From: Paludibacteraceae bacterium
GTDB lineage: Bacteria > Bacteroidota > Bacteroidia > Bacteroidales > Paludibacteraceae
Direction of reading: 5' to 3'
Assembly: GCA_017557345.1 (NCBI GenBank)
Contig: JAFYZR010000004.1
Coordinates: 1-38,819 of the forward strand
DNA: 38,819 nucleotides
Under the pieces are notes generated by a model. It was not told where the DNA came from. It ran no database searches and saw only the letters and a list, made by a program, of their open reading frames with translations. Each line of letters starts with the position of its first letter. Position 1 is the stretch's first letter. Positions 5,910-25,414 of this stretch are shown piece by piece. Both the position numbers and the translations under genes were made by a program.

Positions 5910-7202
5910 CTATACTACTCTTGGCGAAAGCATAACCGTAACAGTAAACAAGTGATCCACTTTGTCGTATTCCCAGTTCATATCACCACCGTACTTTTTC
6001 AGCGTTTTCCTAACGCTCTTTAAGCCAAATCCATGCAATCCAGCGTCGTGCTTTGTGCTTATCAGCTGTTGGCCATCCGTTTTCGGCACATCATCACAGC
6101 TATTGTTCAAGACTATTACATATAGCGAGTTCCGCAAAAACGATTCAAAAGAAATGGTTTTTCCAGCCGAGTTTGATGCAGACTGAATGGCATTGTCCAG
6201 CAGATTTCCTAATATGGCGACAAGATCAATCGCTTCAATGCTGCCGAGATTGCAGGCACGAACATCATAATAGAATTGAACCCCCGCAAGTTCGCATTCA
6301 GTGACGTATTTATCGATTATCACATCCAATGTCTTGTTGCCGCTTTGACAGTGCTTTGTATAGGTTTCCAGTTGCTCGGAGAGCTTCTCAATGTAATCCG
6401 CAATTCTCGGATCAGAGTTCAGACTTTTAATGGCAGCCAGGTGTTTGCGGGTGTCATGGGCATAGATTTTGAGTTGTTGATTTTGATATTCAAGAATATC
6501 ATAATGCGTCTTTTCGTCCAACAGCCGGTCAAACTCGTTTTTGACCCGTATGTACTCCCCCTCTTTTTCGAGGTTGTGATGATAGATGACAAACAGCAGC
6601 ATACTGGAGCAAAACAGGAGAACGCTCATTACCGCAAAAATCGTTTTGCTGATTGGGCGTATCGGCTCATTCGCACTCACATACCAGAATGTCAGCAAGC
6701 AGGCAAAGGCTATAGCAGGATACAAATAGAAGCTGATCGGATAGCGCTTGGTGATTTGCCTGCGTTTTATGAAGTGGACAAAGACAATGCAAGAGAGGGA
6801 ATAGAGCAGTTTGCTTATGGAGACGATGATCACCAGCAGACGAAGATCCGAATTGTAATCCGTTGTGCTGCTATTGGAAAAAACAGACACCAGGAAAATC
6901 GTTGCAAACTCCCATACGCCGCAAAAAACCAGCAGGACCACCGAATACAGAATCGATAAAGCCCAGTTTAATTTGAAGCAGCATTGGGAAAACGCAAACA
7001 AAAGCAGGAATAGATAAAAGAAATTCAGCCAAATCGTGTTGTTGAAATAGGTGTTGATCACAGCGCCGCTTTCAAATATCACCAATCCCAAAAGGATACT
7101 CAGGACGGGATGCCGACGTTTTTCAGAGACGCTGTAAAAGAAATAATAGGTAATCGGGAATTCAAGCAGGTATACCAGACTTGAATAGAGCAGGTTCAAC
7201 AT
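5910..7202 (-). CDS. AgrC-like sensor histidine kinase (GHKL)
   Basis: 430 residues. The first ~210 residues form five to seven hydrophobic helices, as in peptide-sensing AgrC/BlpH/ComD kinases (HPK10 type). The phospho-accepting histidine is in YAHDTRKHL (about His249). The N box is ILGNLLDNAI and the G region is HGFGLKSVRKTL, marking a C-terminal GHKL ATPase. It would detect an extracellular peptide and phosphorylate the regulator encoded just upstream (6-base gap, GGGAGG at 7216-7221 on the minus strand). agrD and agrB lie 5 kb away on the other strand and are the likely source of the signal. Convergent with the relaxase gene. Confident for family, inferred for ligand. Confidence 0.9.
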   Translation of the reverse strand: MLNLLYSSLVYLLEFPITYYFFYSVSEKRRHPVLSILLGLVIFESGAVINTYFNNTIWLNFFYLFLLLFAFSQCCFKLNWALSILYSVVLLVFCGVWEFATIFLVSVFSNSSTTDYNSDLRLLVIIVSISKLLYSLSCIVFVHFIKRRQITKRYPISFYLYPAIAFACLLTFWYVSANEPIRPISKTIFAVMSVLLFCSSMLLFVIYHHNLEKEGEYIRVKNEFDRLLDEKTHYDILEYQNQQLKIYAHDTRKHLAAIKSLNSDPRIADYIEKLSEQLETYTKHCQSGNKTLDVIIDKYVTECELAGVQFYYDVRACNLGSIEAIDLVAILGNLLDNAIQSASNSAGKTISFESFLRNSLYVIVLNNSCDDVPKTDGQQLISTKHDAGLHGFGLKSVRKTLKKYGGDMNWEYDKVDHLFTVTVMLSPRVV

Positions 7203-7208
7203 AAGCTG

Positions 7209-7907
7209 TTAATGCCTCCCAAGGAACCAGAACCAAAACTTGTGAAACTCAGATTGTTTGCGTGAGGCAATGGATATTCTTGTTCCATCTGTCAGAAACA
7301 ACTCGGAGTAAGCGTATTTCTGGACATAGTGAAGATTTACATAGAAGGACTTGTGAACACCGTAGAAGAACGTCACAGGGAGCCTTTGGCAGCATGATTC
7401 GTAATCATCTCTTACACAGAGAACATCCGTAGTTGTATGGACATACACTTTCCGATTCTTACGTTCAATATACATGATTTCGTCGGCCAGAACCTGCTTA
7501 TACGCCCCGTCGCTGTAAAGGTACAAATCAATATAAGAGTTGTCGATGTATTCCATAGCCTTATCTAAGCTGGAGTAGAGCCTGTTCACATCAAAGGGTT
7601 TATCGAAGAAGCGGAAAGCCTGCAAATCCATAGCGTCATCCTGGTACTCCCGGTAGTTGGTTATAAAGAACAACGCGAGTTTCCTGTTTCGGTTGCGCAG
7701 TTCCTTTGCCAGCGAGATACCGTCGATTCCATCCATCTGGATGTCCAGGAAAGCAACATCATATATCTCGTTATTGTGGAATACCTCCACAGGATTCGAG
7801 GCTATAGTAATTGCACAGGGGATAAAATGATTTTTCATGTATCCAGCGATATGCTGCCGCAGGTTTTCCAAAAAGAATACTTCATCATCAACCAAAACCA
7901 CATTCAT
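7209..7907 (-). CDS. AgrA-like LytTR response regulator
   Basis: 232 residues. The N-terminal receiver domain has the acidic pair VDDE near residue 8 and the phospho-acceptor in FLDIQMDG (about Asp55), then FFITNY and FDKPFD. The C-terminal LytTR DNA-binding domain starts near residue 130 (YIERKNRKVYVHT, later VHKSFYVNLHYV). LytTR regulators bind pairs of ~9-10 bp direct repeats spaced about two helical turns apart. Three such pairs, with the same 21-bp period, occur at 8502, 12260 and 13182 in this window. First gene of a two-gene unit with the kinase. The ribosome site before ATG is weak, and a strong hairpin lies in its leader at 7929-7958, so expression may be tuned there. Confidence 0.92.
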   Translation of the reverse strand: MNVVLVDDEVFFLENLRQHIAGYMKNHFIPCAITIASNPVEVFHNNEIYDVAFLDIQMDGIDGISLAKELRNRNRKLALFFITNYREYQDDAMDLQAFRFFDKPFDVNRLYSSLDKAMEYIDNSYIDLYLYSDGAYKQVLADEIMYIERKNRKVYVHTTTDVLCVRDDYESCCQRLPVTFFYGVHKSFYVNLHYVQKYAYSELFLTDGTRISIASRKQSEFHKFWFWFLGRH

Positions 7908-11048: not shown

Positions 11049-11249
11049 ATCACGTTATTCTTTTGTGAAATTTGCCCTTGATACGTAATAGCGTCAAATA
11101 AGCCGGTGGATTGAAGGCCACCTCCAAGAATGAGAGAATGATCCCGGACTCCAGCAGGCAGCCAGAAAGAGGGCGAGTCTGCAGGCGTCTATGCTTGTGC
11201 CATGTTGTGCCATGGACAAGCATAGACAAATCGAGACGGAGAAAACGGA

Positions 11250-11612
11250 GTGGCTGAGCTAACGATCCGGGGAGCGCGCAAGCAGAAGAACTTTCTGGAA
11301 TGGAGCCGCCGGGTGGCGAAATGCCGTGGAAGCGGAGTAACGGTAAGCCGCTGGTGCGCAGAGCACTGCGTCAACCGGAAGACGTACTACACTTGGCAAA
11401 AGAAAGTGTTTGCCGCTATGATCGAGCAGCAGGAATTGTAGATGATGTAAACCGCGGAGCCGGAAAGCCGGTTTGTAGAATTGCCGTCACCGTCGGAGCG
11501 GTATGAACCGGTGGCTGCGATGAGGGTCGGCACGGCGTCGCTGGAATTGTATGGCGGAGCAAGCACTGAATTCGCTGCCGCACTCTGCAAGGCGATGATC
11601 CAGGCTGAATGA
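11250..11612 (+). pseudogene. broken IS66-type tnpA (accessory protein), plus start of tnpB
   Basis: The frame from 11250 encodes FLEWSRRVAKCRGSGVTVS and WCAEHCVNRKTYYTWQKKVF, typical of IS66 TnpA. Two in-frame stops, TAG at 11439 and TAA at 11448, interrupt it. The same frame then resumes with RFVELPSPSERYEP and LELYGGASTEF to a natural stop at 11610, giving the normal ~120-codon length. Just after, DFTGADWIYL in another frame resembles the beginning of TnpB but stops at once. The large transposase TnpC is absent. So this is an eroded end of an IS66 element, with nothing functional left; the stretch 11613-11817 holds no other gene. Confidence 0.8.
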
Positions 11613-11817
11613 CTTCACCGGAGCCGACTGGATTTATTTGTAAACATAAACGAGTTAGATTTGGGAGAACTGAGTCAAAAACGGACTTCCCCCAAGAAAA
11701 GCTTCGCAACTTGAAGGTAACCGACTTCTGTAATGCGCCTCACGGTTTCTCCGGGTAACGAAAAGAACAAATACTGGACGCTTAATTAAATAACAGCAAA
11801 TCTAGATGGTCGCAGGT

Positions 11818-12129
11818 TTATAGCTCAAAATAAGCTTTGACAAGCTTTCGCGCCTGTTCCTGCTGTGGACCTGGCATTCTTCCAATTAGCTTAACCAGGT
11901 CTTCTCCGCCTGCAGACAACTTTCCGATCAGGTAATAATCGGGAGTTTCACCCATTGCATCACATAGCTTGAAGAGAAGTGGAACTGTTGGCAGATTCTT
12001 GCCTCTTTCGATGTTTGACAGATGATTTTTGGAGATTCCTATTTGCTCAGCAAGCTTTTCCTGGGTCATCCCAAGTTCTTTTCTGCGTTGCATGAGTCTG
12101 ATACCGATGAGTTTTCCGTCACAATTCAC
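11818..12129 (-). CDS. XRE-family transcription regulator
   Basis: 103 residues with an N-terminal helix-turn-helix at about residues 10-64 (MTQEKLAEQIGISKNHLSNIERG, shown here in part). A short tail follows, with repeated charged helices (GPQQEQARKLVKAYF), probably for dimerisation. It is transcribed away from agrDB. The ~270-base space between the two contains an exact inverted repeat at 12188-12204 and LytTR site B. A single-domain repressor that controls itself and possibly agrDB is the natural reading. Confidence 0.88.
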   Translation of the reverse strand: MNCDGKLIGIRLMQRRKELGMTQEKLAEQIGISKNHLSNIERGKNLPTVPLLFKLCDAMGETPDYYLIGKLSAGGEDLVKLIGRMPGPQQEQARKLVKAYFEL

Positions 12130-12187
12130 TGTTCTTCACCACACGAGCGAATGGTATCATCTCTGGCGGTGAATATACACAAAGTAT

Positions 12188-12204
12188 AACAGAATAATTC
12201 TGTT
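12188..12204. promoter_or_regulatory. perfect inverted repeat, candidate operator of the XRE regulator
   Basis: AACAGAAT and ATTCTGTT flank a single A, an 8+1+8 perfect dyad 58 bases upstream of the XRE start. It lies beside a TATAAC-like element. Size and place fit autoregulation by an XRE dimer. Confidence 0.6.
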
Positions 12205-12259
12205 AAGTAATGACTTTTTGAGGAAAAATGATTACAGTTCTGCAATACAATGAAATTCG

Positions 12260-12327
12260 GCAGAAATGCGTATTATCTCTGCAATTCTGCTGTACCTGTT
12301 GAAAGGCAGAAATCTCATGGGTATTAT
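12260..12327 (+). promoter_or_regulatory. LytTR direct-repeat site B with promoter, upstream of agrDB
   Basis: GCAGAAATGC (12260-12269) and GCAATTCTGC (12281-12290) are again 21 bp apart. The -10-like TATTAT lies at 12322-12327, 31 bases past the second repeat. The predicted transcript starts about 60 bases before agrD. This matches an autoinducing loop in which the LytTR regulator activates the signal genes. Further partial half-sites (CAGTTCTGC at 12235, GGCAGAAAT at 12305) surround it. Confidence 0.72.
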
Positions 12328-12396
12328 CAGTTTGGAAGTCAGGAAACATTATAAGTTTTCGGCTATCTAAAACCGAAAGAATGGAGGAGAGCACAA

Positions 12397-12549
12397 ATGA
12401 AAAACAGCGTAAAAACTCTCGCGGGGAAGCTTGCAAAGATTACCGCTGTCCAAGCATTGAAAAGGGACGCGAACAGTACAACCTGCATTGCGGTGTTTCA
12501 GCCCAAAGTACCGGCAAAGCTGGCAAAGTTCAAATCCATTTCCAAGTGA
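12397..12549 (+). CDS. agrD: AgrD-like cyclic lactone autoinducer peptide precursor
   Basis: 50 residues from ATG 12397 with GGAGGAG at 12383-12389. The layout is that of AgrD. An amphipathic lysine-rich N-terminus (MKNSVKTLAGKLAKITAVQ) leads to a short linker (ALKRDAN), then STTCIAVF, and then the conserved tail QPKVPAKLAKF. In the family, AgrB cuts before the tail and joins the Cys thiol to the new C-terminus. That would make a five-member thiolactone ring CIAVF with an STT or NSTT exocyclic end. The exact N-terminal cut is unknown. It lies directly before agrB and shares 4 bases with it. Too short for routine ORF calling and read in a different frame from the longer ORF that covers it. Confidence 0.9.
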   Translation: MKNSVKTLAGKLAKITAVQALKRDANSTTCIAVFQPKVPAKLAKFKSISK

Positions 12550-13136
12550 TAACTAAACTCGCACAGAAGACTGTGGACGCCTTATGCGGCACTCAGATGA
12601 TCGGTGAAGAGGATAAGGATCTATATATCTATGGTTTTTTCGTCCTTTACACAAGGTTATTCTTCTTGATTATAACTATACTATTCTCCTTTATGTTTGG
12701 TATAGTCTGGCAAGGAATCTTGATGTATATAATCTTCTCACTGATTAGGAGCTACGCAGGAGGCGTCCACGCCTCTAAGGAAAGCATTTGTTTAACGGCA
12801 ACTACTGTGGCGTTATTCGTATGCGTTATGGTACTCGGGATCTGCATAAAGTGGGATAATGTAATTCTGATGTCGATAGTATTAGTATGTGCATGTTGCT
12901 GCATCGTATTCCTCAGCCCAATGGACACCGAGGAAAAAAGGCTAAGTCCAGAGGAGAGTAAACGGTATTCTCGTATAACTTGTCTTATAGCATCTTTGGT
13001 TACTTTTTTGTCGTGTCTGTGTGCAGTTTTCGGGTTGAGCTCTGTACTGTATATATGTACCGTTAGTTTTGGGTTGGAATCCATTTTATTATTAATTGGT
13101 CGCTTTAGACTGAGAGCAGCGCGGAAGAGAATCTGA
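12546..13136 (+). CDS. agrB: AgrB-like peptide processing protease
   Basis: 196 residues from GTG 12546, whose GTGA overlaps the agrD stop. The open frame runs further left to 12381, but that part is agrD out of frame. Starting here gives the usual AgrB N-terminus with EEDKDLYIYGFF. The catalytic His and Cys are in RSYAGGVHASKESIC, the family's GGxHAxxxxxC signature. Four to six hydrophobic helices follow, so it is an integral membrane protein. It cuts the AgrD tail and forms the thiolactone, working with the kinase/regulator pair at 5910-7907. An in-frame ATG at 12597 would delete conserved residues. Confidence 0.92.
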   Translation: MITKLAQKTVDALCGTQMIGEEDKDLYIYGFFVLYTRLFFLIITILFSFMFGIVWQGILMYIIFSLIRSYAGGVHASKESICLTATTVALFVCVMVLGICIKWDNVILMSIVLVCACCCIVFLSPMDTEEKRLSPEESKRYSRITCLIASLVTFLSCLCAVFGLSSVLYICTVSFGLESILLLIGRFRLRAARKRI

Positions 13137-13893: not shown

Positions 13894-14703
13894 ATGGATT
13901 CAGATAACACCAGAGAAGAATTATGGCGATTATATGAACGAACAAGACTTGATAGACAGTACTTTTTTAAAGGTTTGGATAGTCTTTTATTACCTGACAA
14001 TGCTAGGATTGTTGATATAGGCTGCGGGTCAGGCGGTTCGACTCAGATTATTCGGGAATGCTACCCTAAGGCTGAGATCTACGGAATTGACAGTTCGATA
14101 AAGGCAATACAGTATGCCTCAACTCTACTTAAAGATGAAAAAATAGTGTTTCTAAATACAGACGCGACACATATGCCGTTTCCGGATAGTTATTTTGATT
14201 GTTGTGTCGCGAAAATGTTTTTCGATATAGCCATTAAACATGAAGAAATAATAGAAGAGATTGTGCGTATCCTAAAGCCGCAAGGAATATTGCTTGTATA
14301 TGGGAACACAAGAAGTACAGCCCAGGGCTCTGACCTTCTGAAAAACACTGATAAATTGATCTCTGCCTATAAGCGTTATGTTCGCTTATCCGGGAGAAAG
14401 GGATTCAATGTTGAACATTTTGTGGATATTTTGACCAAAAAATATAGAATGACTGTTAGTGTACAAAAAATTATCAAAGACACTATCGATCCTGGTCGAG
14501 AACAGCTATCAAAGTATTATACACTTTCGGAGATCGAAATCGTACATTGTGCTGAAAACAATATTTTGTCCATATTGGGACTCATATCTCCTAAGGATGT
14601 GATCGAGTACGAAACTTCTTTAAGAGAACTATTAATGACAAGTAACGAGTACATTTCCTTTGAACAGGCAATTCTTTATGCAATCAAGGAGGGTGCACAA
14701 TGA
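13894..14703 (+). CDS. class I SAM-dependent methyltransferase
   Basis: 269 residues; AAGGAAGTG precedes ATG 13894. Motif I is VDIGCGSGGS at about residues 40-50, the acidic end of beta-2 is YGIDSS, the motif II region is NTDATHMPF, and post-motif LKPQGILLVYG appears near residue 130. This is the Methyltransf_11/25 fold. The C-terminal ~120 residues are helical and unassigned, probably for substrate. Its stop overlaps the radical SAM gene (ATGA at 14700), so the two are made together. It would methylate the peptide product or a building block; substrate unknown. Confidence 0.85.
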   Translation: MDSDNTREELWRLYERTRLDRQYFFKGLDSLLLPDNARIVDIGCGSGGSTQIIRECYPKAEIYGIDSSIKAIQYASTLLKDEKIVFLNTDATHMPFPDSYFDCCVAKMFFDIAIKHEEIIEEIVRILKPQGILLVYGNTRSTAQGSDLLKNTDKLISAYKRYVRLSGRKGFNVEHFVDILTKKYRMTVSVQKIIKDTIDPGREQLSKYYTLSEIEIVHCAENNILSILGLISPKDVIEYETSLRELLMTSNEYISFEQAILYAIKEGAQ

Positions 14704-16028
14704 AGTATAAATTTTCTAGATTTAGTTACTTTTTACCTACAAGTAGAGAAACAGACAATGGCACATATGTGTTTAATACATTAACACGTAGTCTAGTTAG
14801 GTTGCCGGAATTTATAAGTGATGCAGAGTTAGTAAAACTTAAAGAGGATGATATTGCTACTCTACATTTTCTCGGAGTCATTGTTGATGAAGAATTGGAT
14901 GAATTAGAAGCAATGAACATCTATATGGATTTGAAGAAATATGAGCAGAAACGATTGATGGTGACAATTATTCCAACGAACGCTTGCAACTTCAGATGTA
15001 TATACTGCTATCAGCCGGAGAAAACAGCAGTCATGAATGAAGTGACTGTTGCAAGAATACTTAAATGGTTTGAGAAAAACCTGCGTTATTATGATGAACT
15101 CAATCTGGGGTGGTTTGGCGGAGAGCCGTTGCTATGTTCGGACATAATGCTTAAACTGCTTAGTAGAATACGAGAATTGTGCAAAAGAAATGGAGTTGCA
15201 ATGGTTTCCTCCATTACCACCAATGGATATTTGCTCAATATTGATCTGTTCCAACAATTGCTCTTAAATGGCTTACTGTATTACCAGATTACTGTAGATG
15301 GAGATGAACCCACTCATAATGCGCAGCGTCCGCATAAAACCAATGGGGATTCATATAGCAGGATCATGCAGAATCTGTCTAACATAGCAAAGCTTCCACA
15401 AAGCCGCAGATTTGAGGTCGGTATCAGAATCAACGTGTCAGGGAATATGAAAATGGAAAACATCTACAGCTTTATAGACAAGATGGCTGAGATGTTTTCT
15501 AGTGATAAACGGTTTGTTATCATTTGGCAATGGGTTAGGGACTGGGGAGGTAGCCGGATCAGTCAGCATAACAAAAAAAATCTCGTGGAAACTAGCAGCG
15601 CCTGTACAAATTATATCAGCTATGCTAAAGAGAAGGGGCTACATGTGGCGGATCTGGTATCTATCATAACCGGTACTGATTCCTGTGAGGCTTATTACAA
15701 AAACGGATATGTAATAAACCTTGACGGCCATGTACATAAATGTGCGATGTGTATGGAGGATGAGAAAAACAACTGTATAGGATACATCGATGAAAACGGA
15801 ATCATGAGACTTGAAGTTTCAAAAGAGTTGAAATGGCTTGCTCATGACAAAATCACGGAAGAATGCGCATCCTGTGTGTATCTGCCAATGTGTTATACCA
15901 ATCGCTGCCATTATAGTACAAAGATTAAAGGTTCATTAACTTGCTTGGAATATAAGAATCTTGTGTTGCCTCAGATTGAGCGAATGATAGAAAAACAAAA
16001 ATTTTATACAGTTGGGTCGTGTGAATAA
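14700..16028 (+). CDS. radical SAM/SPASM peptide maturase
   Basis: 442 residues. The N-terminal ~85 residues (with NTLTRSLVRLP) have the form of the leader-recognition region of peptide maturases. The radical SAM motif CNFRCIYC (Cys96, 100, 103) binds the 4Fe-4S cluster, and GWFGGEPLL near 137-145 is the conserved GGEP. A SPASM-type C-terminus with many cysteines is present: KCAMC, then CASCVYLPMC and further Cys in the last 40 residues. This matches Cys-rich peptide maturases of clostridial RiPP systems of the CcpM type. It would form a carbon- or sulfur-linked crosslink or another radical modification on the precursor at 16405. Start overlaps the methyltransferase stop and GGAGGGTG precedes it. 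Confidence 0.9.
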   Translation: MKYKFSRFSYFLPTSRETDNGTYVFNTLTRSLVRLPEFISDAELVKLKEDDIATLHFLGVIVDEELDELEAMNIYMDLKKYEQKRLMVTIIPTNACNFRCIYCYQPEKTAVMNEVTVARILKWFEKNLRYYDELNLGWFGGEPLLCSDIMLKLLSRIRELCKRNGVAMVSSITTNGYLLNIDLFQQLLLNGLLYYQITVDGDEPTHNAQRPHKTNGDSYSRIMQNLSNIAKLPQSRRFEVGIRINVSGNMKMENIYSFIDKMAEMFSSDKRFVIIWQWVRDWGGSRISQHNKKNLVETSSACTNYISYAKEKGLHVADLVSIITGTDSCEAYYKNGYVINLDGHVHKCAMCMEDEKNNCIGYIDENGIMRLEVSKELKWLAHDKITEECASCVYLPMCYTNRCHYSTKIKGSLTCLEYKNLVLPQIERMIEKQKFYTVGSCE

Positions 16029-16077
16029 AGATATATGTTGTGAAACATTAAAAACCAAAACATGGGAGGATACTTTT

Positions 16078-16311
16078 GTGAGTGTGGAAACGATACGTGA
16101 AAAGGTGAAAGACATGTTTGAAGAAAATGGATTGGTCATCTTCCCTGGTGAGGAAGATGCATCACTCGACTTGGATTCTCTCAGACTGATCTCTCTTGTT
16201 GTGGCGGTAGAGAATACGTTTGAAATTGAGGTTCCAGAGCAGTATCTGTCACAGGCTATGCTCTCATCCTATAATGATTTTTGTGATCTCGTGGTCATGC
16301 TTTGCCGGTGA
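16078..16311 (+). CDS. acyl-carrier-like protein of a peptide maturation system
   Basis: 77 residues from GTG 16078, chosen because GGGAGGA lies 8-10 bases before it; the open frame extends to 16012 inside the previous gene. The sequence LDLDSLRLISLVVAVEN holds the DSL motif with the 4'-phosphopantetheine serine (about Ser34). EIEVPEQYLS then follows, as in acyl or peptidyl carrier proteins. Length is normal for a free carrier. Such ACP-related proteins are known beside radical SAM maturases in clostridial peptide systems. It implies that an acyl or aminoacyl group passes through this pathway, an uncommon feature for a RiPP. Confidence 0.85.
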   Translation: MSVETIREKVKDMFEENGLVIFPGEEDASLDLDSLRLISLVVAVENTFEIEVPEQYLSQAMLSSYNDFCDLVVMLCR

Positions 16312-16404
16312 AATATATCGCTGTAAGCATTGATCAGAGATACAAAATTCGTCTTTGGGGAGGGGCGTCAAAACTCCCACATCACTATAAAGGGGGTGAA
16401 TCAA

Positions 16405-16494
16405 GTGAAGAAGCTCGTTAAGCCGCGCATGAAGAAGGTCGCGAAGTTGTACGGTGAAAACCATGGTGGCAATTGCAATTGCGCAGGTGCCTAA
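16405..16494 (+). CDS. RiPP precursor peptide (29 residues) with Cys-Asn-Cys core
   Basis: GTG 16405 follows AAGGGGG (16390-16396) with 8 bases between, one of the best ribosome sites in the window. The peptide starts MKKLVKPRMKKVAKLYGE and ends NHGGNCNCAGA. A lysine-rich leader with a KL.K....V..LYGE pattern and a short Gly/Asn/Cys tail recalls clostridial CLI_3235-type precursors that occur with radical SAM, ACP-like and subtilase genes; the family link is from memory. It lies between the carrier and the protease genes and is followed after 35 bases by a terminator, as expected for a small, strongly expressed precursor. Cut site and modified residues are unknown. Confidence 0.82.
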   Translation: MKKLVKPRMKKVAKLYGENHGGNCNCAGA

Positions 16495-16529
16495 TCATGG
16501 CTTTCTATTCTAGGTAAGCGTCTGACACA

Positions 16530-16559
16530 GGGCAGAGCGCAAGGTGCTCTGCCCAATTT
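16530..16559 (+). terminator. terminator after the precursor gene
   Basis: GGGCAGAGC and GCTCTGCCC form a perfect 9-bp stem with a 7-base loop, then AATTTTTAATT. It would limit read-through from the precursor into the protease and YcaO genes and so set a high precursor to enzyme ratio. Confidence 0.88.
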
Positions 16560-16628
16560 TTAATTATATATGTTGTTTTTACCGCAGGATGGTTTCCTGT
16601 ATTATTTTAGAACTGGTGAAAGTCACAA

Positions 16629-18494
16629 ATGTACGAAACGATGGGAAAAAGGTGGGGGAAAAAAGGAATTATGGTAATTGGCATCGTAGACAGCGGAGTC
16701 AACGCTGCACATGTGGCATTTGGTGGGAATCTGAAGATTGTAGAAAAACACCATTTTTTTAAAGATTATGAAGGAGCTATCCATCATGATTCGGACGTTA
16801 GTGATGAAATTGGACATGGAACAAGTGTTTGCTGGATTATCAACAGATTTTTCTCTGATGCGGAATTTGTAATCTTTAAGGTGTTTAGCAATGATACAGA
16901 TGCCGATGAAGATATACTAATTCATACATTTGAGTACATTCGGGATTATATTCGATGTGATATTATAAATATCAGCGCAGGGGTACAAAATTGTTCTAAT
17001 ATAAAATATTTCAAGGAATTGTGTGATAGACTTCATCAATCTGGTACGATTATTATCAGTGCGTTTGATAATGAAGGTGGACTAAGTTATCCAGCATGTT
17101 TTGACAGCGTCATAGGTGTTGATATAAGCACCTCATGCTTCCAACCTAAGGACTACTTTTTCATTGAGAAATCGCCGATCAACATTCGCGGCTTTGGATA
17201 CGCACAAATACTACCATCTCTGATGAATCAATATTCAGAACAAAAGGGCGCAAGTTTTGTTGCACCAATCTTTGCTGGAATGTTAGCTAAAATGAAAGCT
17301 CAAGGGGATACAGCTGAACCGATGGAATTCCTGCGTAAGCATGCAAAGGCTTGTTATTCAGGCTTCTATGAACCAGTAGTATCTCATTCGGAAATAATGA
17401 ATGCATCCATATTTCCAGTATCAAAGGAAACAAAAGTACTGATTGAAAACGCAGGGATGTTGTCATTTAAAATTAGACATTTATATGACGTAAAGTATAG
17501 TGGCAACGTGGGGAAGCGCATATCGCAGCTCACATATCAAGGCTGTAAATTAGAACCATATCTTGAAGAAATGATTGTCGAACCCATTGAATCGATTGAT
17601 TTCAATAGCATAGATACCCTGATTATTGGACATATGAATATGCTGCAAACAGCTTCGAGAAACAGTAATATAAAGCATGAACTAATAAAAAAAGCAACTG
17701 ATTCAGATATACAGATATACATGTTCGACAATATTGGAGTTTCAAGAGAATTCTCTGATGAGGTTAATGAAAAAAAACTTCGCATTATATGCCCTTCTGT
17801 TAGTACGATAAATGTACCAAAGCAGCGTTATGGGAGGTTATACTGTTCATCCGTCCCGGTTTTGGGTATATTTGGAACAAGCCCGAAACAAGGCAAGTTT
17901 ACTTTGCAATTGAAACTGCGCAAAGAGTTGTCTGAAGCCGGTTATAAGGTCGCAAATGTAGGAACGGAACCCACAGCGATGCTGTTTGGATTCGAGGAAA
18001 CATACCCGATCGGGTTTAACTCAACTGTTGATATATCCGGAGAAAATGCAATACTCTACTTGAATCAACGAATACACTGCATCGAAGAAACAAATCCTGA
18101 TCTCATCATTGTAGGATCACAGTCACAGTCAGTTTCTAGTGGCGTTGAATCTACCGGCTATATGCCAATCAGGCAGCATGAACTGATCTTAGGAACATGT
18201 CCAGATGCGTATATATTATTGGTGAATACAACGGATGATGAGGAATACATCCACAGAACCATATCATTTTTATCATCCGTGACCACCGCGAAAGTAATTG
18301 CTTTGGTCGTTAGTCCGCTTGTATATCAGATAGAAGGTGGATATCAGACAAAACTATTACGATATATAGATAATAAAGAAATGGAGCAGAGGCTGCATGA
18401 AATGGAGAAAAAGTATAGCATTACTTCTTTTTCGTTAAACGATGATAAAATTGCAGGAAAGCTACGCTGTGTAATTGAGAATTTCTATTCTTGA
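16629..18494 (+). CDS. subtilisin-like protease fused to a DUF1611-like P-loop domain
   Basis: 621 residues from ATG 16629; ATG 16671 (next to AAGGA) would also keep all motifs. Residues ~15-235 are an S8 subtilase: IVDSGV (Asp21), IGHGTS (His63), SAFDNEGG (oxyanion Asn148) and GASFVAP (Ser209), so the triad is complete. There is no signal peptide, so it acts inside the cell. From about residue 275 a second part begins, with LIIGHMNML and a glycine loop FGTSPKQGKFT (~415), VGTEPTAMLFG and DLIIVGSQSQS. This resembles the nucleotide-binding C-terminal domain of DUF1611/DgcN-type proteins. Likely role: leader removal coupled to an ATP-using step, perhaps on the ACP or peptide. The domain pairing is unusual. 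Confidence 0.82.
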   Translation: MYETMGKRWGKKGIMVIGIVDSGVNAAHVAFGGNLKIVEKHHFFKDYEGAIHHDSDVSDEIGHGTSVCWIINRFFSDAEFVIFKVFSNDTDADEDILIHTFEYIRDYIRCDIINISAGVQNCSNIKYFKELCDRLHQSGTIIISAFDNEGGLSYPACFDSVIGVDISTSCFQPKDYFFIEKSPINIRGFGYAQILPSLMNQYSEQKGASFVAPIFAGMLAKMKAQGDTAEPMEFLRKHAKACYSGFYEPVVSHSEIMNASIFPVSKETKVLIENAGMLSFKIRHLYDVKYSGNVGKRISQLTYQGCKLEPYLEEMIVEPIESIDFNSIDTLIIGHMNMLQTASRNSNIKHELIKKATDSDIQIYMFDNIGVSREFSDEVNEKKLRIICPSVSTINVPKQRYGRLYCSSVPVLGIFGTSPKQGKFTLQLKLRKELSEAGYKVANVGTEPTAMLFGFEETYPIGFNSTVDISGENAILYLNQRIHCIEETNPDLIIVGSQSQSVSSGVESTGYMPIRQHELILGTCPDAYILLVNTTDDEEYIHRTISFLSSVTTAKVIALVVSPLVYQIEGGYQTKLLRYIDNKEMEQRLHEMEKKYSITSFSLNDDKIAGKLRCVIENFYS

Positions 18495-18537
18495 AGAAAA
18501 CATATGGTCAAAGATAACGTTGAAGGAGGCTAAGCTG

Positions 18538-20337
18538 GTGGATGTACATTCCTGGAACCGGAAAGATGCATTACCATATGAGAGTGTTGAGAGATTTAAA
18601 CAGATTATGTCTTCGCTTGGCATTGAATACTGTGTAGTTCAAGAAGAAAATTACAAAGATCATTGGTATTCAAACCGAATCGAAATCAAGGGGTTGCCTA
18701 CTATTGGCACAAATGGAAAAGGAATAACAGCGGAATATACCATGGCAAGCGCTATGGGGGAGTTTTTTGAAAGACTTCAGTGCGGAATGTTGATAAACTA
18801 TCTTTATCCTTTAAAAAGAAAAAGGGGAAACATGTCTCACGAAATAGAGCATGTAGCGGACGGGTTTAAAAAGTTTTTTTCTGAGGTCTGGCAGTCAGTC
18901 GGAGAAGATGATGCTAGGAAGATGGCATTATCAAATGCCAAGGACGGTGGAGTGTGTATTTGTGAAGATATATTTACAGGGGAAAAATACACGCTACCAG
19001 AAAACCTGCTGACCGTATTGTGCGGTGCTAATGGCACAGCAGCAGGAAATACATATGCAGAGGCTTTTGTTCAAGGTGTCAGCGAACTGTTTGAGCGATA
19101 TGCAACACAATTCATATTCAAAGAAAAATATGATGACATCTTCAAAGTAATAGAAGAGAAGGCTTATGCATCTCTCAATTCATACAAGCTGATTCAGGCG
19201 ATAAAAGAACGCAGGTATCATGTACGTGTGATCGACTGTTCCTTAGGCGGCAAGCTACCGGTCATCGGGGTTCTCATTTTCGATCCTAGCATGACCAGGT
19301 ACTATTTCAAGTTAGGTGCTGACGCGAATGTCGACATTGCTCTCCAACGTTGTATTACCGAAGTATTCCAAGGATCGAGTTTTGACCTTAATTTTCGTAT
19401 GCGCATGAAAGAATGCTATTCTTCCGATGTGAAAGAAGAAGGTTTTTGGTATGGCAGTAACAGAGCATACGATCATATAAGAGCAGAAATTGATGGAACT
19501 GGTAGTCTGCCACGCGCTTTCTTCAGAAGTATAGAAAATAAGACTAATGCCATATCAGGATTCTGCGACAGTATTGAGACAAATGACGAAGCAGTTGAAT
19601 TCATGCTGGGACGTTGCAAACAGATAACAAACATAGTTGGTTTGATAAACTATACGAAATATGGCATACCTTGTGTTAGAATCATCATTCCTAATATATG
19701 CGCATCCCTGTATTATCCTACGGATCGTGGTACTAGTCTATCTCAGACAATCACCGCAATCCGTGCATTCCGGACTGCGGTTGCCGAGGAAAAACTGCTA
19801 ACGAAGGAAGCCTTAAACTGCATTCTAGATATACTTGGTTATCCAGCTTATACATATGAGTTCAGCATGACAAAACTTTTAGGAGTCATTACGGATAATA
19901 TCGTTGATGCTCCTTATCTGTACAGCCCATATCTGTTTACGGCGTATCTTGCTTTATACCTGAAAGAATATGATATTGCTACGAAATACATGGAGATTTA
20001 TAACAAAAACGCCAAAACAAACGAAACTCTTAGACAACTGGACAGGATGGTTATCAAAGCGTTTATGGAAGGTGTTAAGGACGAGGAAATTCTTCAATTT
20101 GTCAGTGGTTTTGGAGAACATGAGAAAACTACAGCAGAAGTCAACAATTTGATAAACATCCATAAGAAAGGCTTCCAAGTACCATCTTGTCCTAATTGCG
20201 AAGTATGTGCTCTAAAAGAGGTATGTCATTATCATACATGGGAAAAAATTGAAGATTCCATGCTTAGGTATATTCCAAACTCCATGGATGGAGAATTTTT
20301 TAAGTTCATCTTGCAATGCCGTGAAACAGCATTGTGA
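18538..20337 (+). CDS. YcaO-domain peptide-modifying enzyme
   Basis: 599 residues from GTG 18538, which follows AAGGAGG (18523-18529) by 8 bases; the frame is open to 18475 inside the previous gene. YcaO features are present: GTNGKGITAEYTMASAMGEF and FERLQ at about residues 60-85, AAGNTYAEAFVQGVSELFER near 165-185, and KLGADANVDIALQRCITEVFQ near 260-280. These carry the glutamates that bind Mg-ATP in the family. YcaO enzymes activate a backbone amide to form azolines, thioamides or amidines. No E1-like partner and no PxPxP tail are seen. Instead the C-terminus has CPNCEVCALKEVC, a four-cysteine motif for a metal or cluster. Substrate is probably the 29-residue precursor. Confidence 0.85.
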   Translation: MDVHSWNRKDALPYESVERFKQIMSSLGIEYCVVQEENYKDHWYSNRIEIKGLPTIGTNGKGITAEYTMASAMGEFFERLQCGMLINYLYPLKRKRGNMSHEIEHVADGFKKFFSEVWQSVGEDDARKMALSNAKDGGVCICEDIFTGEKYTLPENLLTVLCGANGTAAGNTYAEAFVQGVSELFERYATQFIFKEKYDDIFKVIEEKAYASLNSYKLIQAIKERRYHVRVIDCSLGGKLPVIGVLIFDPSMTRYYFKLGADANVDIALQRCITEVFQGSSFDLNFRMRMKECYSSDVKEEGFWYGSNRAYDHIRAEIDGTGSLPRAFFRSIENKTNAISGFCDSIETNDEAVEFMLGRCKQITNIVGLINYTKYGIPCVRIIIPNICASLYYPTDRGTSLSQTITAIRAFRTAVAEEKLLTKEALNCILDILGYPAYTYEFSMTKLLGVITDNIVDAPYLYSPYLFTAYLALYLKEYDIATKYMEIYNKNAKTNETLRQLDRMVIKAFMEGVKDEEILQFVSGFGEHEKTTAEVNNLINIHKKGFQVPSCPNCEVCALKEVCHYHTWEKIEDSMLRYIPNSMDGEFFKFILQCRETAL

Positions 20338-20378
20338 AAAATTGCAAGGAACGGCTGCCGCATAGGGAGGAAATCGGT

Positions 20379-22187
20379 GTGAAAAAAGATAATTCGTTAC
20401 GAAAAGGCATAATGTTTCTATTTTCAGATATTATGCAAAAAGAACCTATGCTCCTAGTCATGGTGATCCTGTGCATTCTGTTGACGCTTACCACATCCAT
20501 TCTATTGATATATATCCCTTCGTATGCTGTAGCAGTGATAGGCGGAAGTGCAGCAATATCGTCGATAAAAAAACTCATTTTGATTACAATCGTATACTTT
20601 TTCACATCAATGATTGCTGGAGGTATACAGAATGGAAGAGGAATGCGGCAGCTCTATATCGGGCGGAATTTGCTGTACCGGTTGTTTTTGCGGCGACTGA
20701 ACGCAAAGTACGAATACACGGAAAGTGATGCAGGGCAAAAGGCCTATGAAAAAGCCCGTCAGGTATGTCTGTGGGGTACGGATGTCCGACAACTGCTCGA
20801 AGGGTTCATGAGTCTGATCGTTTGTGTTGTCAGCTTCGTCATTTATTCAAGCCTGTTAAGCCGCCTAACCCCATGGCTGATTTTCGTGATGGTTGGGTTG
20901 TCTGCCCTAAACTATATCACCCTTAAGAGGACGCAAAGGGCAAATGACAAGCGAATGGACGAACAGGCTGCCGAAATGCGAAAGTACTTTTACTTGATCA
21001 ACGCTTTTCAAAATACAAAGATCGGGAAAGACATCCGCCTTTACAGAATGGGTGATTGGCTATGTAGAGTGATGGACAAAAGCCTTCGTAAATTACAAGA
21101 AATACACAATGAATTTCAAGCACGTATCCGGGACAGCAGAGTCGTGGCGGCAGGAATAACGTTGCTTCGGGATGGTATTGCTTACGGCTATCTGATTTAT
21201 CAGGCATGCAATCACAGCATCACAATCAGCGAGTTTGTGCTATATTTTGGAATGATCAATCAGCTGACGGGATTTGTCAGCAATTGTATTCAGAGTTATG
21301 GTACGCTGCGTTTGGGCTGCGCGGGAATCTCTTCGGTCAGTGACTATTTTTCTGAAACCGAGGAACCAGAACGTGATAGCCAGGACAGCGGCATGCCTGC
21401 TTCTACCCCCAATATATCGATAGAGTTTCGGGATGTTTGTTTTTCATACGATGGTGTGAATAATATCCTGGATCATATCAATCTGGAAATTAAAGCCGGA
21501 GAAAAAGTGGCTCTGGTTGGAACAAACGGCGCCGGCAAAACAACGCTAGTGAAACTGCTGTGTGGCCTGTATAAGCCACAGTCCGGTCAGATATTCCTGA
21601 ACGGGCAGCCGACGGAGGAACTGACATTTTCTCAGAGGGCAAATTGGATCGGTGCAGTCTTCCAGGATTGTCTCATTCTTCCATACAGCATAGCGGAAAA
21701 CGTCTCAATGTTGCCATATGAAGAAACAGATATCCCGCGGGTAGAGGATTGCCTAAAGTGTGTCGGTCTTTATGAGGCGGTTAATAGGTCTTCTTCCGGT
21801 TTACGAACACAAATGACAAGAGCCGTGGATGAAAAAGGCATAGAGCTTTCCGGCGGGCAGCAGCAAAAGCTGCTGATGGCCAGAATGCTCTATCGTCTAA
21901 ATGCGTCGCTCTGGGTACTGGATGAGCCTACCGCGGCAATGGACGCTTTGGTGGAAAACGAAACCTACTCTTTCTTTCATGCTTTGTGCGGAGAAAGAAC
22001 TTGTATCTATATTTCGCACAGACTCGCAAGCACACGTTTTCTTGACCGGATCATTCTGCTTGACGAAGGGCGCATCGCTGAGGACGGAGCACACGAAGAT
22101 CTGCTCCGGAATAACGGCAAATACGCGCATCTATTCAAAATTCAAAGCAAGTACTATCGGGAGGAAAATGTAAATGAAGCATTATAA
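20379..22187 (+). CDS. ABC exporter, permease plus ATPase
   Basis: 602 residues from GTG 20379, preceded by GGGAGG at 20370-20375; the frame also allows GTG 20334 overlapping the YcaO stop, with a poorer ribosome site. About six membrane helices in residues 1-310, then an ATPase with Walker A GTNGAGKTTL, signature LSGGQQQKL, Walker B LWVLDEPTAAMD and the H-loop ISHRLAS. There is no C39 peptidase domain, which fits leader removal by the separate subtilase. It forms a unit with the next ABC gene (14-base overlap), probably as a heterodimer exporting or giving self-protection against the mature peptide. Confidence 0.88.
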   Translation: MKKDNSLRKGIMFLFSDIMQKEPMLLVMVILCILLTLTTSILLIYIPSYAVAVIGGSAAISSIKKLILITIVYFFTSMIAGGIQNGRGMRQLYIGRNLLYRLFLRRLNAKYEYTESDAGQKAYEKARQVCLWGTDVRQLLEGFMSLIVCVVSFVIYSSLLSRLTPWLIFVMVGLSALNYITLKRTQRANDKRMDEQAAEMRKYFYLINAFQNTKIGKDIRLYRMGDWLCRVMDKSLRKLQEIHNEFQARIRDSRVVAAGITLLRDGIAYGYLIYQACNHSITISEFVLYFGMINQLTGFVSNCIQSYGTLRLGCAGISSVSDYFSETEEPERDSQDSGMPASTPNISIEFRDVCFSYDGVNNILDHINLEIKAGEKVALVGTNGAGKTTLVKLLCGLYKPQSGQIFLNGQPTEELTFSQRANWIGAVFQDCLILPYSIAENVSMLPYEETDIPRVEDCLKCVGLYEAVNRSSSGLRTQMTRAVDEKGIELSGGQQQKLLMARMLYRLNASLWVLDEPTAAMDALVENETYSFFHALCGERTCIYISHRLASTRFLDRIILLDEGRIAEDGAHEDLLRNNGKYAHLFKIQSKYYREENVNEAL

Positions 22188-23991
22188 GCACAGTAATGTT
22201 CGTAGATCTTTCGCATTGCTTCATCGAATAGATCCTCTTTTTTTCCCATATGCTATTCTTAATGGCATTCTGCAATCCTTAATCAACTTTTTTCCGGTGA
22301 TTGTTCTGGCCCAAGTGATCAATAGAATTACTGAACAGCGGGATTTTAACTCGATTATTATAATTGCCCTCGCAGGTGTGATCGGCATATGGATCATCGC
22401 TGTGCTTCAAGCACTGGTGGAGAAAGAAGTAAACGTTCGAAGCCAGAATATTTCCTACAGTTTTGAAACTCTCGTCTCACGTACAACCATGTCTATGGAA
22501 TATGCGCAAATAGAGAGCGACGAGACAAAAAAGATGCAGTCTCAGATCAAGGCCGACCGCAGTTGGGGAAGCGGCTTTTTCGGCGTAACAGCCAAAACAC
22601 AGCAGATCATTCAGCAACTGACGAGCATTATTGTTGCAACAATTATTCTTATTCCTCTTCTGATTGAATCAGCAGCGAACAGTAACTGGTATTTGTTCGG
22701 AACAATCCTGTTGATGCTCGTCCTGTCTGTGGTTATTTCCCGTTTCTTTGATCGCTTCTATAGCAAACGTGAATCTGCCGAAATGCGTGACATGACGCAG
22801 GCGGAGACCAACAGTCGTTTTCACAGTATGACTGAAGGAAGTCATGCCATCAGCTATCGGGATATTAAGGAAATCCTTATTTGCGGGGCAATCTCCCTCA
22901 TCGCTCCCAGCGTAGAGAAGGAAAATGAAATCATCCATAAGCATGCGCTACGTCTTTCAAAGCTAAACTTTATAGGTGGATTGATGAAGGGCGGATCATC
23001 CGGTCTGCTGCTTGGCTTGTCCTACTGCATGGCTATGTTTTGCACCTATACAGGGAAAATCGCAGCAGGCAATATCGTGCAGTACGCGCAGGCTCTGTAT
23101 CAGCTGTCAGTCGGTGTTTCCTCTTTCCTGCAAACAAAAACCGAGCTGAAAGTGGATACAGACCGGCTTGCAAGCACACTGGATTATCTTGATATGGACA
23201 TGCCGCGAGCCGCAGTCGGCTCAATCAAGCCGCAAACCATGAAAGAAATTGAGTTCCGTGACGTTTCCTTTACCTATCCCGGTTCGGATCATCCTGCAAT
23301 CAACGGTTTGAACGTCAAAATCAACGTCGGCAGAAAAACAGCCATCGTCGGCTTAAACGGCAGCGGAAAAACCACGCTGATCAAGCTGCTGTGCCGTCTG
23401 TATTGCCCGGATCAGGGAAGCATATTGCTGGACGGCGTTGACATATGGAATTATGACGAAGCTATCTATCGTGATCTGCTGGCGGTTGTGTTCCAGGATT
23501 ATTCGCTGTTCTCCTTTTCTGTCGGCAGCGTGGTTGCCTCTTCTGAGACTTATGATGCCGATCGCGTGGAGGATGCCCTGAACAGGGCGGGAATGGGAAA
23601 ATGGATCCGGTCGTTGGGCAAAGGGCTGGATACGATCCTATATAGGGAATATGAAAATGACGGGGTGGATATATCCGGAGGTGAAGCACAGAAAATTGCC
23701 ATTGCGCGGGCAATCTACAAGGACGCTTCTCTGGTGATTTTAGACGAGCCAACAGCTGCGTTGGATCCCCAGGCTGAGTATGATACCTACACCAGGCTTG
23801 CTGATCTGATCGGCATGAAAGGCGTCATTTACATTTCACACCGCTTAACTTCTTGCAAATTCTGCGATGAAATCATAGTCGTGGATAATGGACATGTTAT
23901 CGAGCGTGGTACTCATTCGCAATTACTGAGCCACAATGGGCGATATGCGCAAATGTGGAATACTCAAGCACAGTATTACAAAGTGGAGTAG
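22174..23991 (+). CDS. ABC exporter, permease plus ATPase (second half of pair)
   Basis: 605 residues; GGGAGGAAAATGTAA precedes ATG 22174 inside the end of the previous gene. Six-helix membrane part in the first ~320 residues. ATPase motifs are GLNGSGKTTL (Walker A), ISGGEAQKIAIARA (signature), LVILDEPTAALD (Walker B) and ISHRLTS (H-loop). Both halves seem catalytically complete. It ends the RiPP operon; no classical terminator is obvious right after the stop at 23991, and the following 380 bases are degraded DNA. The pair would move the finished peptide out of the cell. Confidence 0.88.
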   Translation: MKHYKHSNVRRSFALLHRIDPLFFPYAILNGILQSLINFFPVIVLAQVINRITEQRDFNSIIIIALAGVIGIWIIAVLQALVEKEVNVRSQNISYSFETLVSRTTMSMEYAQIESDETKKMQSQIKADRSWGSGFFGVTAKTQQIIQQLTSIIVATIILIPLLIESAANSNWYLFGTILLMLVLSVVISRFFDRFYSKRESAEMRDMTQAETNSRFHSMTEGSHAISYRDIKEILICGAISLIAPSVEKENEIIHKHALRLSKLNFIGGLMKGGSSGLLLGLSYCMAMFCTYTGKIAAGNIVQYAQALYQLSVGVSSFLQTKTELKVDTDRLASTLDYLDMDMPRAAVGSIKPQTMKEIEFRDVSFTYPGSDHPAINGLNVKINVGRKTAIVGLNGSGKTTLIKLLCRLYCPDQGSILLDGVDIWNYDEAIYRDLLAVVFQDYSLFSFSVGSVVASSETYDADRVEDALNRAGMGKWIRSLGKGLDTILYREYENDGVDISGGEAQKIAIARAIYKDASLVILDEPTAALDPQAEYDTYTRLADLIGMKGVIYISHRLTSCKFCDEIIVVDNGHVIERGTHSQLLSHNGRYAQMWNTQAQYYKVE

Positions 23992-24373: not shown

Positions 24374-25414
24374 ATGAAAAGCAAAAAAGAAAAAGTGCTT
24401 CCGGTTGCATATCCTTCTATAACAAGCTGGCCATGGCATGCAATTCTTTTCTCCATATTGGAAACAAGAGAAGAGACAAAACCATGGATATATAGTAATT
24501 ATATAAATCTTGTTGGAGGAATGGATGATGTAGTAACTTCATTTGATTTTTCGCCGAATGTAATTGACTATGCAATATGCCCTTGGATAAATGCACAGCT
24601 GTTTAGCCGCGAATATTTATCGAAAAATCACAAAAATATAAAACAATTCTTTATAGACGCAATTGACTCTGGCGCATATATTTTTACAATTATTAATACA
24701 CAATATGCGTTTAGAAATATAATAGGAGAAAACATCGGAAAGTATATTCACGAGACTATGATATATGGATATGATGTTGAAAAAGGCAAATTCAATATTG
24801 CTGATTTTACATATAGAGGTAAATATTCATTTGAAGAAGTTGATATGGATTGCGTAGTTAAAGGATATTTGGACGTTAATGTTGAAGAAGATTATATTGC
24901 ACATAGGCGGGAAGGAGTGTTTTTACTTAAATTCAATGAAAGGGCTAAGTATAAGTTTGATTTGGCGTTAGTAAAGTATTATCTGAAAAATTACATAAAT
25001 GGTAAAGGATTAGATTGTACGACTCGTACAGTTATAACTGATAATTCATTTATGAATACAGGATTAGAAGAAAAAACGGGAATTAGTTCCTATGATCTGC
25101 TCTTTCATTATCTTACGCTTGTAGGCGCTGGAAGCAGAGCTATAGACAAAAGAATTCCACATGTAATTTTCGATCATAAAGAATTAATGTTAAAACGACT
25201 TTTGTTTATGATAGATGAAGGATTCATAGAAAATGATGAAAATATTATTTATAAAATAACCAAAATTAGAGATTTAGCTATGCAAAACAGAAACTTGCTT
25301 TTAAAAAGTATGGTAGCAAGCGTTCCTATTAAATCTGATGATATTATAAATAAATATATGACATTGCGTGACATGGAAATGGATTTATATGATTTAGTGT
25401 TACAACAATTGTAA
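24374..25414 (+). CDS. BtrH-like protein, possible papain-fold acyltransferase
   Basis: 346 residues; TAGGAG lies 8 bases before ATG 24374. The centre holds IHETMIYGYDVEKGKFNIADF (shown at 21 or fewer by splitting: IHETMIYGYD and VEKGKFNIADF), the style of the BtrH N-terminal family (butirosin biosynthesis protein H), whose members move acyl groups from a carrier protein. No signal peptide or membrane helix. Base composition is far more AT-rich than neighbours on both sides, so it was acquired separately or belongs to a different host pool. The carrier protein at 16078 makes a functional link attractive, but the family match is from pattern only and the nucleophile is not pinned down. Confidence 0.55.
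   Translation: MKSKKEKVLPVAYPSITSWPWHAILFSILETREETKPWIYSNYINLVGGMDDVVTSFDFSPNVIDYAICPWINAQLFSREYLSKNHKNIKQFFIDAIDSGAYIFTIINTQYAFRNIIGENIGKYIHETMIYGYDVEKGKFNIADFTYRGKYSFEEVDMDCVVKGYLDVNVEEDYIAHRREGVFLLKFNERAKYKFDLALVKYYLKNYINGKGLDCTTRTVITDNSFMNTGLEEKTGISSYDLLFHYLTLVGAGSRAIDKRIPHVIFDHKELMLKRLLFMIDEGFIENDENIIYKITKIRDLAMQNRNLLLKSMVASVPIKSDDIINKYMTLRDMEMDLYDLVLQQL

Follow-up and report, generated by a model that had tools for sequence, protein, structure and literature searches.

Gene content of the probable operon

The window analysed here is a 38,819-nucleotide stretch of DNA, spanning positions 1 to 38,819 of the forward strand of contig JAFYZR010000004.1 (GenBank assembly GCA_017557345.1, assigned to a Paludibacteraceae bacterium). 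At 13894-23991 it contains a cluster predicted to make a ribosomally synthesized and post-translationally modified peptide (RiPP). Coordinates given without a locus name are positions in this window. The genes of the cluster are all intact and encoded on the same (+) strand:

13894..14703 (+): class I S-adenosylmethionine (SAM) methyltransferase (Pfam Methyltransf_11, 71 bits; motif IVDIGCGSG)
14700..16028 (+): radical SAM/SPASM-type peptide maturase (PF04055, 64 bits; best NCBIfam model TIGR04463, 173.5 bits, cut-off 525)
16078..16311 (+): acyl-carrier-like protein with a DSL serine, GTG start at 16078 (PP-binding, 21.3 bits, cut-off 20.8)
16405..16494 (+): precursor peptide gene, 29 residues, GTG start (leader pattern and strand control)
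16530..16554 (+): terminator-like hairpin 3′ of the precursor gene, a possible attenuator (stem of 11 pairs, then a run of T)
16629..18494 (+): S8 subtilase with a fused TIGR04066/DUF1611-like P-loop domain (QhpE, TIGR04066 and DUF1611_C models)
18475..20337 (+): YcaO of an E. coli-like branch, CxxCx5C motif at the C-terminus (PF02624, 130 bits)
20334..22187 (+): ATP-binding cassette (ABC) half-transporter 1 (ABC_tran, 105 bits)
22174..23991 (+): ABC half-transporter 2 (ABC_tran, 104 bits)

Four adjacent gene pairs overlap by 4 to 20 bases, and hence the genes likely constitute an operon. An earlier sequence-only reading had recognized here a RiPP cluster of a possibly undescribed class, with radical SAM and YcaO enzymes, an acyl carrier, a methyltransferase and a subtilase acting on one tiny precursor. 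Pfam and NCBIfam scans recover each of these components as an intact gene of the cluster, with one amendment: the subtilase is a two-domain protein, with the S8 peptidase joined to the P-loop domain.

The cluster shares with the CLI_3235-type systems (TIGR04065/04066/04068/04069) the radical SAM enzyme, the TIGR04066 domain, the carrier-related protein, the subtilase and the ABC transporter. It differs from them in having the S8 and TIGR04066 domains as one protein and in the addition of the YcaO and the methyltransferase. The same kit of radical SAM enzyme, TIGR04066, carrier-related protein, subtilase and ABC transporter is described for SacP23 of Paenibacillus polymyxa (PMC10731318) and for a cluster of Roseburia intestinalis (PMC4573289); in the available excerpts of both descriptions the subtilase and TIGR04066 are separate proteins and no YcaO is mentioned. 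Thus, as far as these excerpts and the TIGR04066/04068/04069 families go, the kit was already described, and the idea of an undescribed class is supported only in part. No literature describing the full combination was found by title or the start of the abstract. Judged by profile matches and gene order, the cluster is a divergent, fused-protease form of the CLI_3235 (TIGR04066/04068/04069) kit, with the added YcaO as its new part.

The precursor family and the related loci

A scan of an 84,980-species collection, with the TIGR04066-like domains of the window and of a distant homologue (A2) as queries, yielded 49 related loci. The scan was keyed on two peptide patterns and hence misses loci that lack them; one of the 49 (L058) is probably the contig of A2 itself. 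Most of the loci come from Clostridia and Paenibacillus; Bacteroidota, Spirochaetota, Latescibacterota and a Holosporales metagenome-assembled genome (MAG) contribute a few. In an alignment (A3) of 48 relatives with the window, all 49 rows match TIGR04066 at E up to 0.001. Families were counted with iterated profiles anywhere in each fetched locus, and the counts are lower bounds because several loci are cut by contig ends. The TIGR04066 domain is present in 49 loci, S8 in 47, ABC proteins in 46, the carrier in 44, the radical SAM enzyme in 39 and a BtrH-like family (see below) in 32. The methyltransferase is found in 4 (weak in L018), AgrB in 4 and YcaO in 2. The sequence-only reading had held that random occurrence of the YcaO or radical SAM gene without the others in neighboring genomes would speak against it. 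On this point the outcome is mixed: the radical SAM gene does mostly occur without a YcaO, but the kit is largely constant, and the YcaO is an add-on to it rather than a random companion. In L006, the same contig as L058, an S8-TIGR04066 fusion lies beside a short carrier-like open reading frame (ORF) without a Pfam match and glycosyltransferase-like genes (9201-13060, − strand), and no radical SAM gene was seen nearby.

The window precursor, MKKLVKPRMKKVAKLYGENHGGNCNCAGA (29 residues, the GTG start taken as Met), ends in GGNCNCAGA, i.e., HGGNCNCAGA. We divide it at a presumed cleavage site into a leader of about MKKLVKPRMKKVAKLYGE and a core of about NHGGNCNCAGA, some 11 residues. The leader pattern, comprising a Lys-rich start, a hydrophobic-aromatic pair and a ribosome-binding-site-like sequence, was sought on both strands of the window and the 49 loci. 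Across these 50 sources it recovers 54 short ORFs on the coding strand as against 5 on the opposite one; for non-overlapping ORFs with at least two cysteines lying no more than 700 bases from cluster genes, the figures are 35 and 0. By this strand control, the precursor is more than a chance ORF and belongs to a conserved family encoded beside the same genes in related loci, so that the idea of a RiPP cluster with one tiny precursor is well supported. From these ORFs we hand-picked a set of 42 precursors from 34 sources (39 of the 54, plus 3 others); the 15 left out mostly lie apart from the cluster or overlap genes, and those of L033, L046 and L048 could be real. A KK/KP start is found in 40 of the 42, the aromatic pair in all 42, a following Glu in 39 and at least two cysteines in 39, counts that are descriptive rather than a test because the set was chosen by eye. 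The HGGNC motif occurs in 2 of the 42, namely those of the window and of L011 (Lachnospiraceae MAG20): their last ten residues (HGGNCNCAGA and HGGNCSCSGN) are identical at 7 of 10 positions, as compared to 12 of 29 for the whole peptide. The TIGR04065 precursor model finds no match in the window precursor and matches one of eight precursors from its relatives (19.5 bits, cut-off 26). In L020, three tandem precursor genes (5165-5525) differ solely in the two residues preceding the final CC.

The stretch 16495-16575, which follows the precursor gene and includes the hairpin, folds better than its shuffles (z −3.7). The corresponding stretch of L011 also has a hairpin and likewise folds better (z −2.4, with 5 of 200 shuffles as good). 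As a class, terminator-like sites are not in excess there (3 versus 1.7 ± 1.4 in shuffles), nor are promoter-like sites (10 versus 11.3). The hairpin might act as an attenuator that raises precursor over enzyme transcripts.

L011 repeats the order of the window: methyltransferase, radical SAM enzyme, carrier, precursor, S8-TIGR04066 fusion, YcaO and two ABC proteins, its methyltransferase homologue being the first gene of the cluster. Trees of the S8-TIGR04066 fusion (45 rows, support 100/100; 39% identity over 602 columns) and of the radical SAM enzyme (37 rows, 99/95; 35% over 431 columns) both place the two loci as sisters, and their YcaO proteins are 34% identical. Retention of the gene set and the core motif across so deep a divergence suggests that these enzymes act together. 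The second locus with a YcaO, L034, has a BchE-like radical SAM enzyme (60 bits, cut-off 481) in place of the SPASM one; this BchE/B12-type gene overlaps that of the YcaO (15581-18860), and the locus also holds a methyltransferase-like protein (24 bits), a carrier and an S8-TIGR04066 fusion. Its precursor (9009-9128; MKDANKKKGLKKPVRKNSAENTVQVYSPEGKRLSGKISW) has the family leader and is free of Cys.

YcaO was found in 3 of the 38 genomes searched among those of the 49 loci: within the cluster in L011 and L034, and elsewhere in the genome in P. tritici (L069). Its presence was scarce around the window's genome (2/120 and 4/374 genomes) and in the family of L011's genome (1/19), each count including the own genome. 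In the window's own taxonomic surroundings the fusion protein was found in 1/295 and 3/295 genomes and TIGR04066 in 3/295, again with the own genome counted. Scans of viral contigs with the subtilase protein, A3 and a precursor DNA pattern recovered no relatives, and a plasmid search matched the subtilase part alone (5 records).

The enzymes and the carrier

The radical SAM enzyme has a CX3CX2C motif (CNFRCIYC) at residue 96. It reaches 74.7 bits with the kit model TIGR04068 (cut-off 500), below the 173.5 bits of TIGR04463, and other models of SPASM-type maturases also match below their cut-offs (e.g., PapB, 94 of 340 bits). The likeness to ranthipeptide and sactipeptide maturases lies in these models together with the Cys-containing core; the window system differs in its very short core and in the added YcaO, methyltransferase and carrier, and a thioether is only predicted here.

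In the fusion protein, TIGR04066 scores 82.4 bits against the whole and 85.1 bits against the domain alone (cut-off 200; E about 1e-23), and DUF1611_C scores 32 bits (cut-off 25). The best model of the S8 half is QhpE (98.8 bits, under its cut-off of 165), and its catalytic triad is intact: S209 is found in all 47 aligned rows, and D21 and H63 are each found in 46 of 47, the remaining row having a gap. In quinohemoprotein maturation the radical SAM enzyme QhpD acts first and the subtilase QhpE follows, the latter probably removing the leader in the cytosol; by comparison, the window S8 domain carries a P-loop domain and faces a 29-residue peptide. Against PDB profiles the TIGR04066-like domain matches 2g0t (DUF1611; E 7.5e-8), and its first part also matches WalK sensor chains (E about 1e-4). 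DUF1611/DgcN proteins have an acyltransfer role. The available excerpt of one report names dgcN a key gene of a D-Glu racemization pathway and does not state its reaction (PMC12363236).

The carrier (scanned as 16054-16311) reaches 23.4 bits with TIGR04069 (cut-off 70). In an alignment of the window with 37 of 48 matches, the 11 weakest or shortest being excluded, the attachment serine is kept in 38 of 38 rows (35 DS, 1 ES, 2 NS), which suggests that the carrier is phosphopantetheinylated. The cluster probably, though not certainly, reaches beyond 23991 to a further gene:

24374..25414 (+): divergent BtrH-like protein, a possible acyltransferase (family present in 32/49 related loci)

BtrH is the enzyme of butirosin biosynthesis that transfers an acyl group from its carrier. 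Among 32 aligned members of the BtrH-like family, 12 match BtrH_N with E values of 1 or lower (best 6.7e-6), and one match that was checked falls below the Pfam cut-off (20.9 of 29.7 bits). In the PDB, the last 80 positions of the family profile match BRIC1 (E 2.4e-6) and, at E 0.009 or weaker, CheA chains, which we take as a helical-bundle resemblance that implies no function. A protein of L041 (11059-12180) considered as a BtrH/carrier fusion was dropped, profile comparison giving it a 3.7% probability.

The sole solved structure matched by the YcaO is that of E. coli (4q84; E 5e-24). The nucleotide/Mg motifs of YcaO proteins are conserved. The C-terminal CPNCEVCALKEVC motif (CxxCx5C) recurs in L011, L034, L061 and L066 and is absent from E. 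coli YcaO. A comparable arrangement is described in excerpts on the itf cluster of Bacteroides thetaiotaomicron, where ItfB, which joins a YcaO to an [Fe-S]-recognition domain, forms an amidine in the peptide backbone, ammonium supplying the nitrogen, and is accompanied by the SPASM radical SAM enzyme ItfD (PMC11002830, PMC10352776). By this description, the CxxCx5C end of the window protein is compatible with an ItfB-like enzyme. The itf cluster is described as having C39 and TonB-dependent transporters, its precursor ends in Ile-Thr-Phe, and the same excerpts name no carrier, S8-TIGR04066 or methyltransferase. We sought an Ile-Thr-Phe precursor beside the YcaO genes of L061 and L066 and found none. 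The branch order of the YcaO tree is provisional because it has 8 rows, with support of 80-93% on the window side.

Among 392 genomes sampled within the order to which L011's genome belongs, 13 have a YcaO of this kind, L011's own included. Thirteen neighborhoods from the other 12 genomes include a radical SAM gene within 8.5 kb in 5 cases (L088, L089, L095, L098 and L099); the Cys motif is recovered by regular expression in 5 of the 13, and the L100 YcaO is a broken fragment. This YcaO is thus accessory to several systems, some of them with radical SAM enzymes, and the pairing of YcaO and radical SAM alone is not the novelty. The excerpted account of a Bacteroidales mining study likewise gives 24 of 1,340 areas of interest (15 + 3 + 6) as combining the two (PMC10352776). 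With the itf precedent added, the pair is less rare than the sequence-only reading proposed; the whole combination is rare in what was searched.

Two kinds of YcaO locus deserve separate mention. L061 (9086-19501) is a Bacteroidales-type locus with a YcaO, a SPASM-type and a B12-type radical SAM enzyme and, by eye, TonB-like, LanC-like, glycosyltransferase and C39 ABC proteins, with a candidate precursor ending in GGYCCGNGCDNLS. L095, L098 and L099 combine small GG-type peptides (Nif11-like by eye), three radical SAM enzymes, a YcaO and a further protein of ~585 residues with, by eye, an ATP-pyrophosphatase-like protein and C39-like ABC exporters.

Proposed pathway, alternatives and genomic setting

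The gene content and order, the conserved precursor family and the intact active-site motifs are best explained by a fused-protease, CLI_3235-like RiPP operon in which the added YcaO and methyltransferase act on the core, a reading that we consider probable. We posit that the enzymes are brought to the short core NHGGNCNCAGA by docking through the Lys-rich leader (KKLVKP...KVAKLYGE). A Cys-dependent crosslink, most likely a thioether, would be the work of the radical SAM enzyme, and the YcaO would activate one of the core's backbone amides with ATP, with an amidine, as for ItfB, being the most likely outcome and a thiazoline at Cys a less likely one. The methyltransferase might methylate the peptide, leader removal in the cytosol might fall to the S8 half of the fusion by analogy with QhpE after QhpD, and the two ABC halves might export the product. 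In the least certain step, the carrier and the TIGR04066-like half, perhaps with the BtrH-like protein, would transfer an acyl or aminoacyl group from the carrier to the peptide, the new N-terminus being the probable site. Such an acyl addition is plausible but weakly supported, and it seems to us unlikely that the product defines a new RiPP class, namely a peptide of ~11 residues that is crosslinked by the radical SAM enzyme, methylated, given a backbone amidine by the YcaO and capped, with an acyl or aminoacyl group from a dedicated carrier, at the N-terminus that the protease-transferase fusion exposes. Under that reading, the cap step would be general to the whole kit.

Several observations weigh against parts of this proposal. 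The full gene set is repeated in L011 only, and the window proteins fall below all three kit cut-offs (TIGR04066, TIGR04068 and TIGR04069); since their scores are below these curated thresholds, they resemble the families without being members. Pfam SPASM scores 18.2 bits on the radical SAM enzyme, under the cut-off of 21.5. The Ile-Thr-Phe end of the ItfB-type precursor is absent, the window core ending in AGA, and S8-TIGR04066 is listed in none of the 13 other YcaO neighborhoods, of which 5 have a radical SAM gene. The cap proposal leans partly on the DUF1611 role mentioned above; the window's own BtrH-like protein has no BtrH_N match at E up to 1, and the cap is made less likely because the BtrH-like gene was not detected in L011. 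According to the available excerpt, the authors of the SacP23 study read TIGR04066 as an immunity rather than a modification protein (PMC10731318).

Some of these points bear on a different role for the carrier-like protein, one compatible with the other readings: it may deliver no acyl group and instead serve the modification enzymes as a scaffold or chaperone. We hold this tentatively, as a possibility short of even. No carrier-loading or condensing enzyme recurs among neighbor families present in at least 4 loci, the PP-binding score is marginal, and the failure to detect a BtrH-like gene in L011 also fits; the attachment serine kept in all 38 aligned rows and the co-occurrence of the BtrH-like family in 32/49 loci argue for acyl delivery instead. 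As for the added enzymes, the YcaO and the methyltransferase could be passengers beside an ordinary radical SAM-modified, CLI_3235-like peptide. In line with this, YcaO went undetected in 47 of the 49 loci (some cut by contig ends), YcaOs of this branch also occur in settings without a recognised RiPP kit, and a relative of the window methyltransferase, to the detriment of the preferred reading too, is found in L044, a locus without a detected YcaO. However, the genes overlap inside the operon, the YcaO holds the same position in the sister L011 despite deep divergence, and the HGGNC core occurs, among the 42 precursors, in just these two. We consider passenger status improbable.

The two Cys in the core raise the prospect of an azole-type peptide (thiazole/oxazole-modified microcin- or thiopeptide-like), in which the YcaO would form thiazolines at both and the radical SAM enzyme would modify the peptide elsewhere. 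Bottromycin and the thiopeptides do combine a YcaO and a radical SAM enzyme in one pathway, and a Pro-rich YcaO C-terminus marks azole formers. As worded in an available excerpt, an antiSMASH-type thiopeptide rule (YcaO plus PF04055) would apply to the cluster (PMC13289728), and rule-based mining may label it a thiopeptide. The partner proteins of the bottromycin and thiopeptide pathways were, however, not found among the window proteins scanned: no ThiF/E1-like partner or LanB-like dehydratase in the ten cluster-region and ten further window proteins, and no TfuA among the ten cluster-region proteins (Pfam, E up to 0.1). The SagD-family model reaches only 41 of 219 bits, the C-terminus of the window YcaO is without the Pro-rich end seen in L069, and the related L034 precursor is Cys-free, though it has Ser. 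On balance, we regard azole formation as rather improbable. A thioamide was also considered, and TfuA was not found beside the YcaO. It is far less credible that the YcaO and radical SAM pair has ribosomal protein S12 as its substrate, in the way that E. coli YcaO helps RimO: YcaO_for_S12 is the best NCBIfam model of the YcaO (159 of 700 bits), yet the best models of the radical SAM enzyme are SPASM peptide maturases, RimO is not among the 25 matches listed, and the genes surround a precursor together with a leader protease and an exporter.

For the preferred reading of a CLI_3235-like operon extended by a YcaO, the interest lies in a kit that recurs in Clostridia and Paenibacillus and is chemically little explored, the excerpts of the kit papers giving no product structure; the system also bears on the role of a carrier protein in a ribosomal peptide pathway. 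The window and L011 would offer a minimal substrate of ~11 core residues and a case of backbone chemistry seemingly added to the kit.

Upstream of the cluster lie Agr-like signalling genes that may control the operon:

5910..7907 (−): possible regulatory pair of a GHKL sensor kinase and a LytTR response regulator (13/49 loci have a response-regulator family, named by eye, nearby)
12381..13136 (+): AgrB-like protein, possible signal processing (PF04647, 110 bits; AgrB also in 4/49 loci)

The outer parts of the window (1-5726 and 27973-38467) encode a helicase-like protein, DUF3848/3849, a MobA-type relaxase and a tyrosine integrase; one serine recombinase of the mobile parts is confirmed by Pfam and two more were seen by eye. 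The G+C content of the operon region is lower than that of these parts. Outside the window, the cluster is nearest in tetranucleotide make-up to the clostridial L034 (0.81) and L022 (0.79), and another part of the window finds its closest counterpart in a small contig of this assembly, the differences being small. The five nearest rows in both the S8-TIGR04066 and the radical SAM trees are Bacillota. The assembly has 6.84% contamination; by eye the proteins read on its larger contigs (C25, C40 and C90), like the neighbors in genomes of its family and order, look Bacteroidales. The contig (C17) is probably a clostridial mobile element, either mis-binned with the wrong genome or transferred. The same element carries a Gabija-like defence system of two genes (33007-36828; GajA, 589 bits; GajB, 590 bits).

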